Shown: positions 4,388 to 22,461 of the stretch, piece after piece
Layout of the letters: each line of letters begins with the position of its first letter
Numbering within the stretch: position 1 is the stretch's first letter
IMG/VR virus record: IMGVR_UViG_3300029448_000290
Location: 1,828-25,057 of that record
Direction: 5' to 3' (one strand)
Origin: a virus
DNA: 23,230 bases
Made by a program: the position numbers and the translations under genes
Notes under the pieces: generated by a model
Databases searched by the model: none
What the model saw: the letters and a program-made list of their open reading frames with translations, nothing else
What the model was told of the DNA's origin: nothing

Positions 4388-5052
4388 TATACCCTCAAAT
4401 ATTGAATGTCAGGTTGAAGTTTCAAAGAAACCCTATCCTCATCCTCATCCGCTGCACGTTGGAACTCTTCTTCATACAACGTTTTTAAAAGCTGTACACG
4501 TTCTGGAGCCTTCTTTAATGCAATGTAATATGCCATGCCAGCCGCCGCGCAAGGCAGAAAACGGAACGGAAGTTCCATTGTGTTGACCAATGCATCTGCA
4601 TCTTCTATGCGTCTTACATAGTAGTAAACAAGTTGATCAGTGCTGTTTTCTGGTGTAGGCCATAACGTTATTTCAGGCGCGATCTGTCTATTGAAGAAAT
4701 ATTGAGAAGGTCTACCCTCTGTGGTTTTGGAGGGCTGAGACAAATAGTTGCTTCTACTAATCTTACTTACTGTAAAATCTGTGTTACTTCTTCTGACGAC
4801 AACCTCTAAGAGATCTACAACATCAGCACCGAGTGTAATTGTAGCTTGACCAGACGTTAACGTAGTTGTGGCTTGACGAACGGTCCAAAGATTAACACCT
4901 CTGTTCGCCCAATCAGCAAACATCAAGTTCATGGAACGCCTAGCTGTTCTCGCATCGTATCCGGTGCGGACTTCTAATCCGCACCGTTCATACGCCTCTT
5001 CGATGATCTCAGCTACGTCAAGATCAAAATCTCTTGAGTTTGAAGTTGCCAT
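4387..5052 (-). CDS. Putative head-tail adaptor / tail-tube A-like protein
   Basis: The 221-residue product starts MATSNSRDFDLDVAEIIEEA. It has the features of podovirus-type adaptor proteins: an N-terminal helix bundle with 'EIIEEAYERCGLEVRTGYDA..ARRSMN', then 'LWTVRQ', a beta region, 'EITLWPTPENSTDQLVYYYVRR' (about 129-150), and a C-terminal helical part with 'LPFRFLPCAAAGMAYYIALK' and an acidic 'EEEFQRAADEDEDR'. These proteins form a ring beneath the portal in known podoviruses. The ATG at 5052 overlaps the stop of the 47-residue gene upstream (TAATG). The neighbour at 3222-4076 has a similar strand order and a matching 'xxTPxxxxxxLxYYYxR' motif, which suggests an old duplication or two successive ring proteins. 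Confidence 0.78.
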   Translation of the reverse strand: MATSNSRDFDLDVAEIIEEAYERCGLEVRTGYDARTARRSMNLMFADWANRGVNLWTVRQATTTLTSGQATITLGADVVDLLEVVVRRSNTDFTVSKISRSNYLSQPSKTTEGRPSQYFFNRQIAPEITLWPTPENSTDQLVYYYVRRIEDADALVNTMELPFRFLPCAAAGMAYYIALKKAPERVQLLKTLYEEEFQRAADEDEDRVSLKLQPDIQYLRV

Positions 5053-5195
5053 TACTTAGACCTAACTTTACCACCGCGCATCATCTTCTTCATGCCTACT
5101 TTACCACCGCGCATCATCTTCTTCATGGGAAGTTTTGCCTTAGTCATTCCACCACCACGCATACGTTTCATGGCTTTTTTCTTAGCACCTGGCAT
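5052..5195 (-). CDS. 47-residue Met/Lys/Gly-rich repeat protein
   Basis: I found this short frame by translating the gap directly. The ATG at 5195 opens a 47-codon frame closed by TAA at 5054-5052, and that TAA overlaps the ATG of the adaptor-like gene (TAATG). The start lies inside the last codons of the 155-residue gene upstream, as expected for coupled translation. The protein is almost entirely basic and repetitive. A unit KKMMRGGKV occurs twice, 11 residues apart, and degenerate versions (KRMRGGG) precede it. There is no membrane helix and there are only a few non-charged residues. I recall comparable Met/Arg/Gly repeats from small marine phage proteins, function unknown; nucleic-acid or capsid binding is a guess. 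Confidence 0.75.
   Translation of the reverse strand: MPGAKKKAMKRMRGGGMTKAKLPMKKMMRGGKVGMKKMMRGGKVRSK
5065..5127 (-). repeat. Two 30-base direct repeats within the 47-residue gene
   Basis: Bases 5065-5094 and 5098-5127 are identical over 30 bases, with a period of 33 bases, which is 11 codons. The repeat encodes the duplicated MKKMMRGGKV unit in the minus-strand gene. Exact identity, including third codon positions, points to a recent tandem duplication or to continuing slippage, so copy number may differ in relatives. Confidence 0.9.
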
Positions 5196-6247: not shown

Positions 6248-6523
6248 TTAGAGTTCCTCTTCGATAGAGGTTTTGAAATTTGTTTTTGCATTGAGCTTCG
6301 CGAGATTGCCATCATACGTCCTTCCCGTGAAATCTTCCCACATAGGTCTAATCATCTCATGAAGTTGATCTATTTTTTCATTATTAGCATCAATCTTCAA
6401 CGCCATGACCGCTACATTTCTATCTACGGCAATAAGCGTTGTTGAAATCCATGTGAGACCAGTTACACATGCACCTATAAAAGCAACAAAGATCGTTCCT
6501 GCAATGAAGTTAGCACTTAACAT
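6248..6523 (-). CDS. Small membrane-anchored protein with coiled coil
   Basis: A GTG at 6529 would also open this frame, but AGGAG lies about nine bases from the ATG at 6523 and only three from the GTG, so I start at MLSANFIAGT. The 91-residue product has one hydrophobic segment near residues 5-27 (FIAGTIFVAFIGACVTGLTW), then a short heptad-like region (KIDANNEKIDQLHEMI), and a charged end. This topology fits an inner-membrane protein with a soluble C-terminal domain. It could be a holin-like or spanin-like lysis component or a superinfection protein, but nothing in the sequence decides between these. It lies among genes for small basic proteins rather than in the main membrane-protein block. 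Confidence 0.7.
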   Translation of the reverse strand: MLSANFIAGTIFVAFIGACVTGLTWISTTLIAVDRNVAVMALKIDANNEKIDQLHEMIRPMWEDFTGRTYDGNLAKLNAKTNFKTSIEEEL

Positions 6524-17382: not shown

Positions 17383-17759
17383 CAAAAGCTCCCCTTAAAC
17401 TCACCCAACGAAACCTTACCGCCATTGCGGAACTCACCAACAACGACCTTGTCACCTGGTTTGATCTTATCAGGATCTTTGATGCCGGAGGCTTTTGCCA
17501 TCTTTTTTACAACTTCTAGAGCCTCACGAGGGCTAAACCCTGCCTTACCTGTAGAAGATCGAATTGATGATCCACCGCTGTCTCCTAAAGCGATGTCATA
17601 CATCGTATCACCCTTAGAAACGGTATATATCTCTCTTCTAGGAGGATTGCTTTTAGACTGTCCCCTGTTCGGAAATTTGCCCTTTGCTCCATCACGGAGT
17701 TTTTGCAGGCTCTCTTGAGTCTTCCTGCGTCTCTCTAAATCTTTTTTACTGTCAGCCAT
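17382..17759 (-). CDS. LysM-like protein with FKGSF C-terminal tag
   Basis: The start is ATG at 17759, overlapping the TerL stop (TGATG); a TTG at 17762 is less likely. The 125-residue protein has a basic, polar N-terminus, then YTVSKGDTMYDIAL (residues about 45-58) and 'ASGIKDPDKIKPGDKVVV' near 91-108. These match the opening and closing parts of a LysM peptidoglycan-binding domain ('YTVxxGDTxxxIAx ... xNxIxxPDxIxPGQxLxI'). The region between is longer than usual, with a 'SSIRSSTGKAGFSPREALEV' insertion, and the protein ends EFRNGGKVSLGEFKGSF. It carries no catalytic domain, so it may anchor a virion component to the cell wall rather than digest it. No signal peptide is visible. Confidence 0.78.
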   Translation of the reverse strand: MADSKKDLERRRKTQESLQKLRDGAKGKFPNRGQSKSNPPRREIYTVSKGDTMYDIALGDSGGSSIRSSTGKAGFSPREALEVVKKMAKASGIKDPDKIKPGDKVVVGEFRNGGKVSLGEFKGSF

Positions 17760-19225
17760 CAATAATACTCCCGTTTTCTAGGATACCAGTCACTGTTATC
17801 GTTCTCACCTTCAAGTTCGATAAACCCACCCTGCCGGAAACGCATCAAAGCCATCGTCATGCTATCAACAAAGTCGTCATGCTCTCCATGCGGAAACGCA
17901 AGACATTCCTCGATAACTTCCTCCGAGAACTTCTGTTCCGGTGCCCACACCATCCCCGCCTCAAAGAGCGGTGCTACCGTGTGCATACGGGTGATCTTAT
18001 CACGACCCTTGCTCGGTGTATAGTTCATAACAGGAATGCCTGCCGCACGCATCTCGTCCGTCAGCGGTTGCCCTGAAGCCTTCGCTTCAATGATGACCAT
18101 ATCCGGTTCCCAATACTCATACTCCTCTCCAGCAACTGCTTTAAGCTCTGGAAAATTCCATCTACCGCGTCTCGCATCCATGAGAATAACATTGTCAGCC
18201 CCTGTCTCTTCATTAACAAATACCCCCCATGTCGTAATCGCAGAATAGTCTGCCGTCTCTTTCTTACTAAATGCCGTATCATACGCCTGTATTATGTAAT
18301 TTACAGTGGGTATTTCCTCCTTTTGCCACATGTTCCACCATTCTTTCTTGACAATCGCCCCCTCTTCGGCTGTCGGATTCTGCTGCCACTGTGCATTCCA
18401 CTTGGCTACAGGCAAGGATGCCTTGACCTTGACCAGCGAATCATGATCCCAGAACTCAGGCCATAGGGGTTTGTCTGATGGTAGTATGGCGGGGAACTCA
18501 ATAACCTCCCATTCGTCCGCTAAAGTGTCAGATCCCTGCATTTTGATGACCTGACCCGTCAAATCCTTCATTCCCCAGCGTGTCATAACGATAATTATGG
18601 CTCCACCAGGCTGTAAACGCTGTCTTGGACCGGAGGTATACCATTCAAAGGCGTTATCGAACGCCGTAGACGACAATGCGTCCTGTTCCGAGTGCGGATC
18701 GTCAATAATCAACAGATCTGCACCGCGTCCAGTCATTGCAGCACCCACTCCGGCAGCAAAATACTCGCCTCCAGCCGAAGTTCCCCACCTTCCGGCGGCT
18801 TTATCGTCCGCTTTTAGTCCCGTTTCGGGGAAAATGGTGTGATAATCGGGTGTATCGATCAAATCCCGCACTTTTCTGCCAAATCTAACCGCCAACTCCG
18901 TGTTATGGGTGGCCTGAATGATCTTGAGCTTCGGATTTCGCCCCAAAAACCACGCTGGCATCAAATATGAGGCAAATTCCGACTTGGAATGACGCGGTGG
19001 CATGTTCACAATCAGCCTTTTTAGCTTGCCTTGCGCCACTTGTTCCAGTTTTTCGGCAATAACGCGGTGATGACGGCCTTCTATGAACCCGTCATACACA
19101 TGATGCACGAATGGCATGAACTGATCGCGTGCTTTTTCGCGTATCGAGAGTCGAACCTGCTGGTTCTGAAGGGCATATATCTCCTTCAGAGCCTCTTCAG
19201 GTATCGTATCAAATCTGTCTACCAA
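17759..19225 (-). CDS. terL: Terminase large subunit
   Basis: The 488-residue product has both terminase domains. The ATPase part shows a Walker A-like NMPPRHSKS (residues 74-82), Walker B LLIIDDPHSE (171-180) with D175/D176, and a coupling motif MTRWGMKDL (214-222). The RNase H-like nuclease part contains 'QAYDTAF' with D316, IIEAKASG with E380 and 'HDDFVDSMTMAL' with D450, D451 and D454, all in expected order. TerL drives ATP-dependent DNA translocation into the prohead and cuts the concatemer. The first usable start is TTG at 19225, overlapping the previous stop region by 17 bases with an AGGGG-like sequence ahead. A small terminase subunit was not recognised; one of the two upstream genes could encode its equivalent. 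Confidence 0.93.
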   Translation of the reverse strand: MVDRFDTIPEEALKEIYALQNQQVRLSIREKARDQFMPFVHHVYDGFIEGRHHRVIAEKLEQVAQGKLKRLIVNMPPRHSKSEFASYLMPAWFLGRNPKLKIIQATHNTELAVRFGRKVRDLIDTPDYHTIFPETGLKADDKAAGRWGTSAGGEYFAAGVGAAMTGRGADLLIIDDPHSEQDALSSTAFDNAFEWYTSGPRQRLQPGGAIIIVMTRWGMKDLTGQVIKMQGSDTLADEWEVIEFPAILPSDKPLWPEFWDHDSLVKVKASLPVAKWNAQWQQNPTAEEGAIVKKEWWNMWQKEEIPTVNYIIQAYDTAFSKKETADYSAITTWGVFVNEETGADNVILMDARRGRWNFPELKAVAGEEYEYWEPDMVIIEAKASGQPLTDEMRAAGIPVMNYTPSKGRDKITRMHTVAPLFEAGMVWAPEQKFSEEVIEECLAFPHGEHDDFVDSMTMALMRFRQGGFIELEGENDNSDWYPRKREYY

Positions 19226-20792: not shown

Positions 20793-21183
20793 AACAGCTC
20801 CTACCGTTTGGTCGCCTCCAGTATCCTATCTGATGACCCGTATGCTCAGGGATAAATCGGCGCATGTCTTTCGCAATGTATGATACACTATCTACCGCTA
20901 CCATGTCTATAACCCACGCCTGTTCACCCTCAACTCTCGCAAACGCTTCCGTACCATCATATTTTTGAGTCCGACCCTCCTCCTCGGTCAAAAAACACCA
21001 TGTGCAAAAACCTATCAACGAATCGTCACGAAGATAATATCGAACCTTGCCATGCTCTATTGCAGGAATGAATCGGTAGCCAAGATTCTTGATGCTCTGA
21101 TCACGATAATGGGGCGCAGAGTCCAGTAACACGCACATACGACCAAACATCTCAAATGAATTTATTTTTGAAATTTTTTCCAC
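20752..21183 (-). CDS. HlyC-like toxin-activating lysine acyltransferase
   Basis: The 143-residue product is read from GTG at 21183, with AAAGGAG nine bases ahead; the next in-frame ATG would remove the N-terminal helix. It resembles the RTX toxin-activating acyltransferases (HlyC, CyaC): a helix 'SFEMFGRMCVLLDSAPHYRD' (9-28), 'FIPAIEHGKVRYYLRDDSLI', 'GFCTWCFLTEEE' (58-69, compare HlyC AYCSWANLSLEN), 'AWVIDMVAV' (89-97, compare KWFIDWIAP), and 'MRRFIPE'. In HlyC, His23 and Asp92 are catalytic; H25 and D93 are the likely equivalents. These enzymes move a fatty acyl group from acyl carrier protein to toxin lysines. No RTX toxin is present in the window. It is the first gene of the late operon. 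Confidence 0.82.
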   Translation of the reverse strand: MEKISKINSFEMFGRMCVLLDSAPHYRDQSIKNLGYRFIPAIEHGKVRYYLRDDSLIGFCTWCFLTEEEGRTQKYDGTEAFARVEGEQAWVIDMVAVDSVSYIAKDMRRFIPEHTGHQIGYWRRPNGRSCYARNIPRNKEVVV

Positions 21184-21282
21184 CCCTAGGGACTCCTTTA
21201 GCTATTCCTACAATTTAATTGTGGAACTTGCAACCTGAACCTGGGTTCAATGGAAAAACACATGAATAAATGTACCCATCTA

Positions 21283-21297
21283 GGGCGGGAGGGTGGG
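21283..21297 (+). other. Predicted four-tetrad-run G-quadruplex motif
   Basis: GGGCGGGAGGGTGGG has four runs of three G with single-base loops, the type expected to give a very stable parallel quadruplex. The G-rich strand is the plus strand, which is the template for the leftward late operon if the promoter lies to its right. Formation has not been tested. Confidence 0.75.
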
Positions 21298-21314
21298 CGC
21301 GGCGCGGCCTGGTT

Positions 21315-21395
21315 TTTGTCAAGGGGGTCGGGGGTCAAACATTTGACACATCCCGCCCGATCCGACCAAGTAACCCCTGTCAAATTACTGACAAA
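21315..21395. promoter_or_regulatory. Cluster of TGTCAA/TTGACA half-sites, operator-like
   Basis: Within about 80 bases there are a TGTCAA at 21317, an inverted repeat GTCAAACATTTGAC at 21334-21347, and a second inverted repeat TGTCAAATTACTGACA at 21378-21393. The half-site TTTGACA/TGTCAAA recurs five times with small variations. TTGACA is also the -35 consensus, so some copies may be promoter elements; however, no good -10 was found at the right distance. Binding by the helix-turn-helix protein of 22249-22461 is a natural hypothesis. Confidence 0.5.
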
Positions 21396-21446
21396 TAAAA
21401 TGTGTTTTACTTGTTGTATTGTGTTGCATGTTGTCTCATATGGTAG

Positions 21447-21529: not shown

Positions 21530-21748
21530 ATGACAACACAATTTCCTAGAGCGCATCAGTTCAACAAACTCGATGCAAAGCAACAACATGAGTTCGCTAA
21601 AGAGATGGCGAAGTTATGGGGTGGCATTGTTAAAGAGATTGAAGCGCAAGCGGTAGACAATGGCAATGCCTACTATCGCGAACAGGAATTTTCGTACAAG
21701 GCAAAAGCTGCCTATACGCAAGTTCGCAACATGTTCACTTGGAAATAG
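21530..21748 (+). CDS. Small helical protein, first rightward gene
   Basis: The frame extends upstream to 21419, but the ATG at 21530 has TATGGAGG about eight bases ahead and is the likely start. The 72-residue product (MTTQFPRAHQFNKLDAKQQH) is helical and polar, with 'EFAKEMAKLWGGIVKEIEAQ' and 'FSYKAKAAYTQVRNMFTW'. No membrane segment or motif is visible. The SD sequence resembles those of the next rightward genes (ATGGAGGGC at 21791, TATGGAGGA at 22775), so these genes share translation signals distinct from the coupled junctions of the late operon. Early expression is inferred from position. Function unknown. Confidence 0.72.
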   Translation: MTTQFPRAHQFNKLDAKQQHEFAKEMAKLWGGIVKEIEAQAVDNGNAYYREQEFSYKAKAAYTQVRNMFTWK

Positions 21749-21755
21749 TAACCTA

Positions 21756-21778
21756 GGCTAGGGCATAATGCCCTAGCC
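21756..21778 (+). terminator. Perfect ten-base-pair hairpin, possible terminator or processing site
   Basis: GGCTAGGGCA and TGCCCTAGCC form a ten-base-pair stem around a TAA loop, seven bases after the stop of the first rightward gene. There is no T-run (ATTACC follows), so efficient intrinsic termination is doubtful; a role in mRNA stability or processing, or a bidirectional block, is equally possible. Confidence 0.5.
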
Positions 21779-22064: not shown

Positions 22065-22249
22065 TGGTTAGGCTGTTCTTCGTGCTAGCAGGATTATTCC
22101 TGCTAGCTACAGCTCATTCACTGTACGGATTAACTACAGTAATGAGTATGGACGTTGATAGCATTATCAGGCTATCGATTATCGTGCACGCTGTCGCGGC
22201 ATTCTATTGCGCTGGCGTAATTCATCTAATAGTGAAAGGCAGGAGATAA
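22064..22249 (+). CDS. Small two-TM membrane protein
   Basis: The 61-residue product (MVRLFFVLAGLFLLATAHSL) has two hydrophobic segments, residues about 4-23 and about 38-56, joined by a short polar loop (TVMSMDVDSI), and ends with KGRR. This is a simple alpha-hairpin membrane protein with both ends probably inside. It is coupled to both neighbours: TAATG at its start and at its end. Small membrane proteins in early phage regions often act in superinfection exclusion or host takeover, but nothing in this one identifies its target. Confidence 0.72.
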   Translation: MVRLFFVLAGLFLLATAHSLYGLTTVMSMDVDSIIRLSIIVHAVAAFYCAGVIHLIVKGRR

Positions 22250-22461
22250 TGAAAATAATGACCCCTCGAAAAATTGTTGAGATGCGAGAGCGTCACGGCA
22301 TTCGGTCAGCCACTAGGCTGGCCGAAATTATAGGCGTTGGTCCAACGACTATAAAACGATATGAGGCGGGTTATTTGAAACCTACTAAAGCAATCAACAA
22401 TCTTTTTAGATTGTTTGATAAGCACGGGGAAAGGTTGTTTAATGAATTGGATAACTGTTAA
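22249..22461 (+). CDS. XRE-family helix-turn-helix regulator
   Basis: The ATG at 22249 overlaps the previous stop as TAATG with AGGAG just ahead, giving 70 residues (an upstream in-frame ATG at 22207 lies inside the previous gene). Residues about 6-55 form a typical Cro/CI-type helix-turn-helix: 'PRKIVEMRERHGIRSATRLA', then 'EIIGVGPTTIKRYEAGYLKP', with the recognition helix around GPTTIKRYEAG (31-41). The closing 'NNLFRLFDKHGERLFNEL' is usual for such proteins. Lacking a separate dimerisation or cleavage domain, it is more Cro- or antitoxin-like than CI-like. It could bind the half-sites at 21317-21393 or a site near its own promoter. Confidence 0.85.
   Translation: MKIMTPRKIVEMRERHGIRSATRLAEIIGVGPTTIKRYEAGYLKPTKAINNLFRLFDKHGERLFNELDNC

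Follow-up and report, generated by a model that had tools for sequence, protein, structure and literature searches.

A short G-run motif in the window, by which we mean the whole stretch of 23,230 nucleotides analyzed here (positions 1,828 to 25,057 of IMG/VR virus record IMGVR_UViG_3300029448_000290), is part of a conserved noncoding element of ~230 bp, at positions 21152 to 21377, that lies upstream of the leftward operon containing terL and the structural genes and is found in relatives of HTVC023P-type phages. Judged from sequence, this unique cis-acting site at the head of the terminase and late operon may be the region where DNA packaging is initiated or the DNA is cleaved, comparable to a cos or pac site. 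We give this reading a probability of about 0.38, which would place it somewhat ahead of a late promoter, with recombination and replication origin functions as further rivals. In tailed phages, cos and pac sites, of which lambda cos is an example, are unique, noncoding, located beside the terminase genes, and built from repeated binding units. The element shares these properties: it is unique in the genome, noncoding, adjacent to the terminase genes, and contains repeats. To our knowledge, no cos or pac site includes a G-run module, and a search of openly accessible literature turned up no description of a conserved phage G-quadruplex (G4) at a terminase operon.

The motif, GGGCGGGAGGGTGGG, occupies positions 21283 to 21297 on the plus strand and consists of four G3 runs with three 1-nt loops, which places it among G-quadruplex-forming sequences (four runs of at least 3 G's with loops of 1 to 7 nt); it may fold as a quadruplex in the cell. 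No other G3N1-7 motif occurs in the window, both strands considered, nor does a second G3N1x4 motif occur in the whole 29,033-base record; the expectation is 0.0002 to 0.001 G3N1x4 copies in the window under Markov models of order 1 to 3 trained with the motif removed. The GC content is 65.6% over the 96 bases from 21283, compared with 45.6% for the window, and the richest of the sampled 96-mers start at 21273 and 21281. High G content extends beyond the motif, since the top 25-nt G4Hunter window (1.72 at 21310) sits over the neighboring sequence GGGGGTCGGGGG. The surrounding noncoding gap of ~346 bases, in which no convincing gene was found, extends from a leftward open reading frame start at 21183 to a rightward gene that most likely begins at the ATG at 21530, which has GGAGG ahead of it (the listed open reading frame starts at 21419). 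Leftward genes (encoding proteins of 143 and 527 amino acids, TerL, and portal) flank the gap on one side and small rightward genes flank it on the other. The original prediction, which described a G-quadruplex motif with three single-base loops in a GC-rich patch of a moderate-GC genome, within a noncoding interval between divergent operons and with the plus strand as the template for leftward transcription, is thus correct on each of these points. A hairpin fold of the G-rich strand was considered and rejected, as it scored no better than shuffled sequences (z = 0.28).

On the plus strand, the element runs in the order u1, spacer, u2, G4 motif, a GC-rich stretch with AAGGGGGTCGGGGG, TTGAC palindromes, and CCAAGTAACCCC; a profile of it built from 21 sequences matched many further contigs. 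The u1 unit (21152 to 21196, minus strand) is a 45-bp repeat ending CCTAGGGACTCC that was recognized by its ungapped alignment with u2 in aligned relatives. Read leftward, it is GGAGTCCC...AAATTCATTTG, of which GGAGTCCC does not vary among the 24 aligned relatives, and in the window the first leftward gene begins within this unit. The second copy, u2 (21247 to 21291, minus strand), ends CTAGGGCGGGA and aligns with u1 over 45 columns without a gap; the GGG at this end doubles as the first G-run of the quadruplex motif. The two copies are 95 bp apart in the window, 94 to 96 bp apart in loci L007, L009, L014, L032, and L083, and ~175 bp apart in L069. In profile searches at E < 1, they were the sole pair in the window and in three contigs of 56 to 58 kb; in the L069 genome (G015), the match to u1 was weak (E = 0.27). 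A pair that is unique in each genome or long contig searched is what a packaging site or an origin would have, which favors the packaging reading.

To the right of the motif, a GC-rich swap region (21298 to 21340) that includes GTCAAGGGGGTCGGGGGTC (21318 to 21336) differs between lineages. Also on this side are the TTGAC-type palindrome GGTCAAACATTTGACA (21331 to 21346), which recurs in relatives from this group and, as read from its sequence, may be operator-like, and the right border CCAAGTAACCCC (21366 to 21377, plus strand), which is conserved across most relatives. A second TTGAC-type palindrome, TGTCAAATTACTGACA, begins just right of the border, and other groups of relatives carry different operator-like repeats on the right side of the element. 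The reverse complement of CCAAGTAACCCC holds GGGTTACTT, which is predicted to pair with GGAGTCCC of u1 without covariation. RNAalifold analysis of the element leader returned 7 pairs with a covariation term of 0, and an Rfam search of the element matched no family; a conserved leader RNA structure was rejected on these two grounds. In the rightward operon, a small helix-turn-helix repressor-like protein (22207 to 22461; PHROG transcriptional regulators) is a candidate binder of the TTGAC palindromes, and a further palindrome, GGCTAGGGCATAATGCCCTAGCC (21756 to 21778), between two small rightward genes may be a terminator or a binding site.

Relatives were collected as 80 IMG/VR loci by a search with TerL (17759 to 19225, minus strand), whose nearest cultured or named counterparts, those of the HTVC023P-type pelagiphages 023Pt_psg01, HTVC027P, and HTVC023P and of DSL-LC04, are 56 to 62% identical. 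The same motif on the equivalent strand, CCCNCCCNCCCNCCC, lies ~1.8 to 2.7 kb upstream of terL in most of the close loci that cover the region and farther from terL in some outer relatives. Among 30 records searched whole, 14 contained exactly one G3N1x4 motif, so that the motif is not scattered through these genomes, a check that the original prediction had proposed; extra copies occur in the outer relatives L068 and L083. In the named phages, 023Pt_psg01 has GGGGGGGAGGGTGGG upstream of terL, and both it and HTVC027P have a AAATTTTTT-type motif directly upstream of terL, whereas HTVC023P, HTVC027P, and DSL-LC04 differ from the window in being without G3N1x4. The main text of an mSystems study of 80 uncultivated HTVC023P-type genomes does not contain the words "intergenic," "quadruplex," or "promoter" (PMC9599517).

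In the window's record, the element is ~2 kb from terL and ~3.6 kb from terS, which lies to its right at about 26715 to 27269 of the record. In the divergent phages L410, L383, L423, L427, L461, L464, and L401, a degenerate element, consisting of u1 with GGGACTCC followed by AGGGGGGTGGGGG, lies between terS and terL, in a gap of ~445 bp (e.g., in L410), and in L371 and L431 the element is still upstream of terL even though terS is inside the leftward operon. The element thus stays in front of the terL operon whether terS lies across the gap, inside the operon, or to the right, and both this constancy and the occupation of the terS-terL gap by the degenerate element favor the packaging reading. 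Between the element and the terL start of L410 (~2000 to 2370) are GAGAACGTTCTC palindromes that appear operator-like. In most relatives, terS is adjoined by the gene for a nuclease-like protein of 151 amino acids (L087 6337 to 6792, minus strand), which we take from its sequence to be VRR-NUC-like.

A late promoter would occupy the same place, which weakens the packaging reading. It is possible, at somewhat less than that reading's own odds, that the element is the control region of the late operon, in which u1 and u2 would be tandem leftward promoter units (a CCCTAG box, an AT-rich core, and TTTTCATTTG), with the G-run tract serving as an upstream activator site or as an insulator between the divergent operons. 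Several features would suit a promoter: in the window's group and in several relatives, the first leftward gene begins within u1 or immediately after it; the operator-like palindromes on the right side vary by lineage; and two of the five same-strand GGGNGGGTGGGCCC repeats in the terS-terL interval of 023Pt_psg01 precede TTGACA-like sequences. However, sigma-70-like sites between 20900 and 21900 were not above chance, the genomes searched contain no further copies of the u unit, whereas a promoter serving several operons would recur, and in the L410-type phages it lies between a leftward terS and terL, with u1 ~170 bp from the terL start.

The G-runs themselves appear to be under selection. 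Across 33 distinct homologous alleles that were selected for carrying the full motif, every one of the 12 G columns is preserved, whereas 4, 3, and 2 different bases occur at the three loop positions. Because these alleles were chosen by motif presence, the unbiased evidence is the absence of near misses: no homolog was seen in which one run is broken without compensation. The only remodeled homologs observed, L046 and L465, have GGGTGGGTGGAGTGGGTAGGG and keep four G3 runs, and L055 has three G-runs followed by the contig end. The intact columns and the retention of four runs in L046 and L465 favor the packaging reading. The motif is nevertheless replaced wholesale in related lineages, by CAGCACAGCACAGCAC (allele B) in L011, L032, and L118, by AACTAACTGCA in L070 to L081 and others, and by short hairpins in L371, L417, and L436; the TerL proteins of L011 and L032 are 93% and 90% identical to that of the window despite their non-G4 allele. 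The conservation of the four G-runs in related phages, which the original prediction had offered as a test, is therefore largely borne out, the runs being intact within the homologous alleles but lost where unrelated sequence has been swapped in. The motif appears to be selected where it is present and yet exchangeable, and it is not itself indispensable, since some of the lineages that have replaced it are close by TerL. Nine allele changes are needed on the TerL tree. Structure-forming DNA is not a property of every allele; hairpins are predicted in some (L417, z = -3.8) but not in alleles B and C.

It appears quite improbable that the motif is a G-rich repeat kept by homology and a common assembly artifact, without quadruplex function. 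The absence or replacement of the motif in related lineages and the possibility that contig ends there reflect sequencing dropout are compatible with such an explanation, whereas the variation of all three loops with 0 of 12 G's varying in the 33 alleles (chosen for the full motif) and the failure to find a homolog with a single uncompensated broken run argue against it.

Among contigs ending 1 to 4 kb upstream of terL, 7 of 47 end within a 22-bp site (binomial P of ~6e-8, for a site chosen post hoc, its limits having been set after seven ends were picked by eye), and two near-complete contigs, of 55,098 and 57,328 bases, begin at the element, each lacking ~75 to 130 bases. This clustering favors a packaging site. 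The ends inside the motif are not base exact, one of the seven (L071) carries a non-G4 allele, and several near-complete contigs run unbroken through the motif; the inexact ends and the contigs that cross the motif argue against the packaging reading. Illumina read quality drops from the first base of a G4 onward (PMC8516911), which makes sequencing dropout the simpler cause of the contig ends and a physical end the less likely one, and their inexactness is more in keeping with G4 or GC dropout than with a fixed cut. As a sign of quadruplex folding, the ends are only suggestive. No terminal repeats were found in the HTVC023P and HTVC027P records, and the cultured records are circular or lack a terminal repeat, which also argues against the packaging reading.

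The motif coincides with a module boundary. Identity between L011 and L116 or L007 is 0.90 to 0.93 over the 40 bases preceding the motif but 0.46 to 0.50 from its first base, and more broadly these sister phages are 0.83 to 0.96 identical up to the motif and 0.40 to 0.54 identical from its first base. A similar fall, from 0.75 to 0.90 in the 400 bases before the motif to 0.40 to 0.54, separates L032 and L031, and L116 and L007 rise from 0.84 to 0.95 before the motif to 1.0 after it. Because sister identity falls from ~0.9 to background exactly at the first base, the motif marks the boundary, and protein comparison breaks at the same place, with late genes alike and accessory genes unrelated.

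Such junctions raise the alternative of a recombination-promoting quadruplex, at which the motif would break or open and the accessory block would be exchanged. In Neisseria gonorrhoeae, a short G-run motif near the pilE gene, together with its associated small-RNA promoter, is needed for recombination, as determined by recombination assays (PMC3547852). By analogy, the pilE G4, likewise a short G-run motif near a gene, is the nearest functional analog for a boundary role, although the evidence here consists of sequence junctions only. The fall in identity at the first base of the motif and the abundance of quadruplex-forming arrays in the accessory block relative to the late block would fit this explanation. 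It is nonetheless unlikely, since the conserved flanking repeats alone would give the homology for exchange, several lineages exchange without a G4 allele, and neither u1 and u2 nor the fixed place beside terL would be needed for such a role alone.

If the element is a packaging site, the G-run motif would be a selected, strand-specific part of a nucleoprotein site. Its constant half, formed by u1 and u2 with a usual spacing of about nine helical turns, would travel with the terL and structural module, and terminase proteins would assemble on these repeats; the G-run half, which abuts u2, would go with the accessory module and be swapped as a block. The tract, either as a duplex or as a G-quadruplex formed upon strand opening, may then act as an exchangeable recognition or pausing element. 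We infer terminase binding to the site and cutting of the DNA there from this arrangement. The site would then be a natural case of phage quadruplex-motif G-runs under selection while the loops drift, at a single site beside packaging genes; the natural replacement alleles would be ready controls, and the site would tie G4 DNA, in a testable way, to terminase action and to the mosaic exchange of gene modules among phages.

L011 and L032, which carry allele B, are apart in the TerL tree, each beside G4-type phages. Their TerS proteins group with that of the other allele B phage, outside the main G4 group, which favors the packaging reading, with weak support for the trio (46/90). TerS does not track the allele strictly, as L053, with the G4 allele, and L056, with a hairpin allele, encode TerS proteins that are nearly identical; this breaks a strict TerS-allele coevolution, argues against the packaging reading, and suggests that the coupling may be plain linkage. 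Within the right block, no gene family cognate to the G4 allele was found.

A replication origin, with the G-rich strand aiding opening or stabilizing an R-loop, has the slimmest chance of the readings considered. Direct repeats, an AT-rich spacer, and a G-rich strand at a divergent intergenic site would suit an origin, and GC skew changes sign there. However, skew broadly tracks gene direction at the element and elsewhere in three contigs of 56 to 58 kb, without a switch independent of gene direction, and because it follows gene direction it is silent on an origin; skew was rejected as an indicator. The origin suggested in the original prediction thus gained no independent support, whereas its suggestion of a protein-binding or control site is strengthened by the conserved element around the motif. 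New relative to that prediction are the 45-bp repeats, the association with the terminase genes, the module boundary, and the G4 arrays of the accessory block.

Counted on both strands, G3N1-7 motifs number 1 in 255 kb of the late block, 31 in 8.6 kb of the element, and 49 in 134 kb of the accessory block to the right of the element, where they are mostly TTCGGG-like arrays with the G's on the opposite strand. Of the 18 G4-allele loci with sufficient sequence, 17 contain such arrays, compared with 2 of 7 other loci (Fisher P = 0.002, relatedness being ignored). It is conceivable, if rather doubtful, that the G4-forming tract is an exchangeable recognition or pausing module and that the arrays mark accessory gene junctions, the whole organizing both packaging and modular exchange. 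In the window's record (L087), CCCGAAACCCGAAACCCGAA (TTTCGGG) arrays lie between accessory genes at ~5050 to 5150 (~25.05 to 25.15 kb of the record) and ~6390 to 6420, and a run of N's (an assembly gap) is located beside the array at ~5060. In L083 (IMGVR 3300025653_000442), a module is repeated 4.3 to 7.0 kb upstream of terL, in the order G3N1 tract (plus strand), ~25 to 60 bp, TTCGGG array (minus strand), promoter-like sequence, and gene, and two of its copies come after a terminator-like hairpin.
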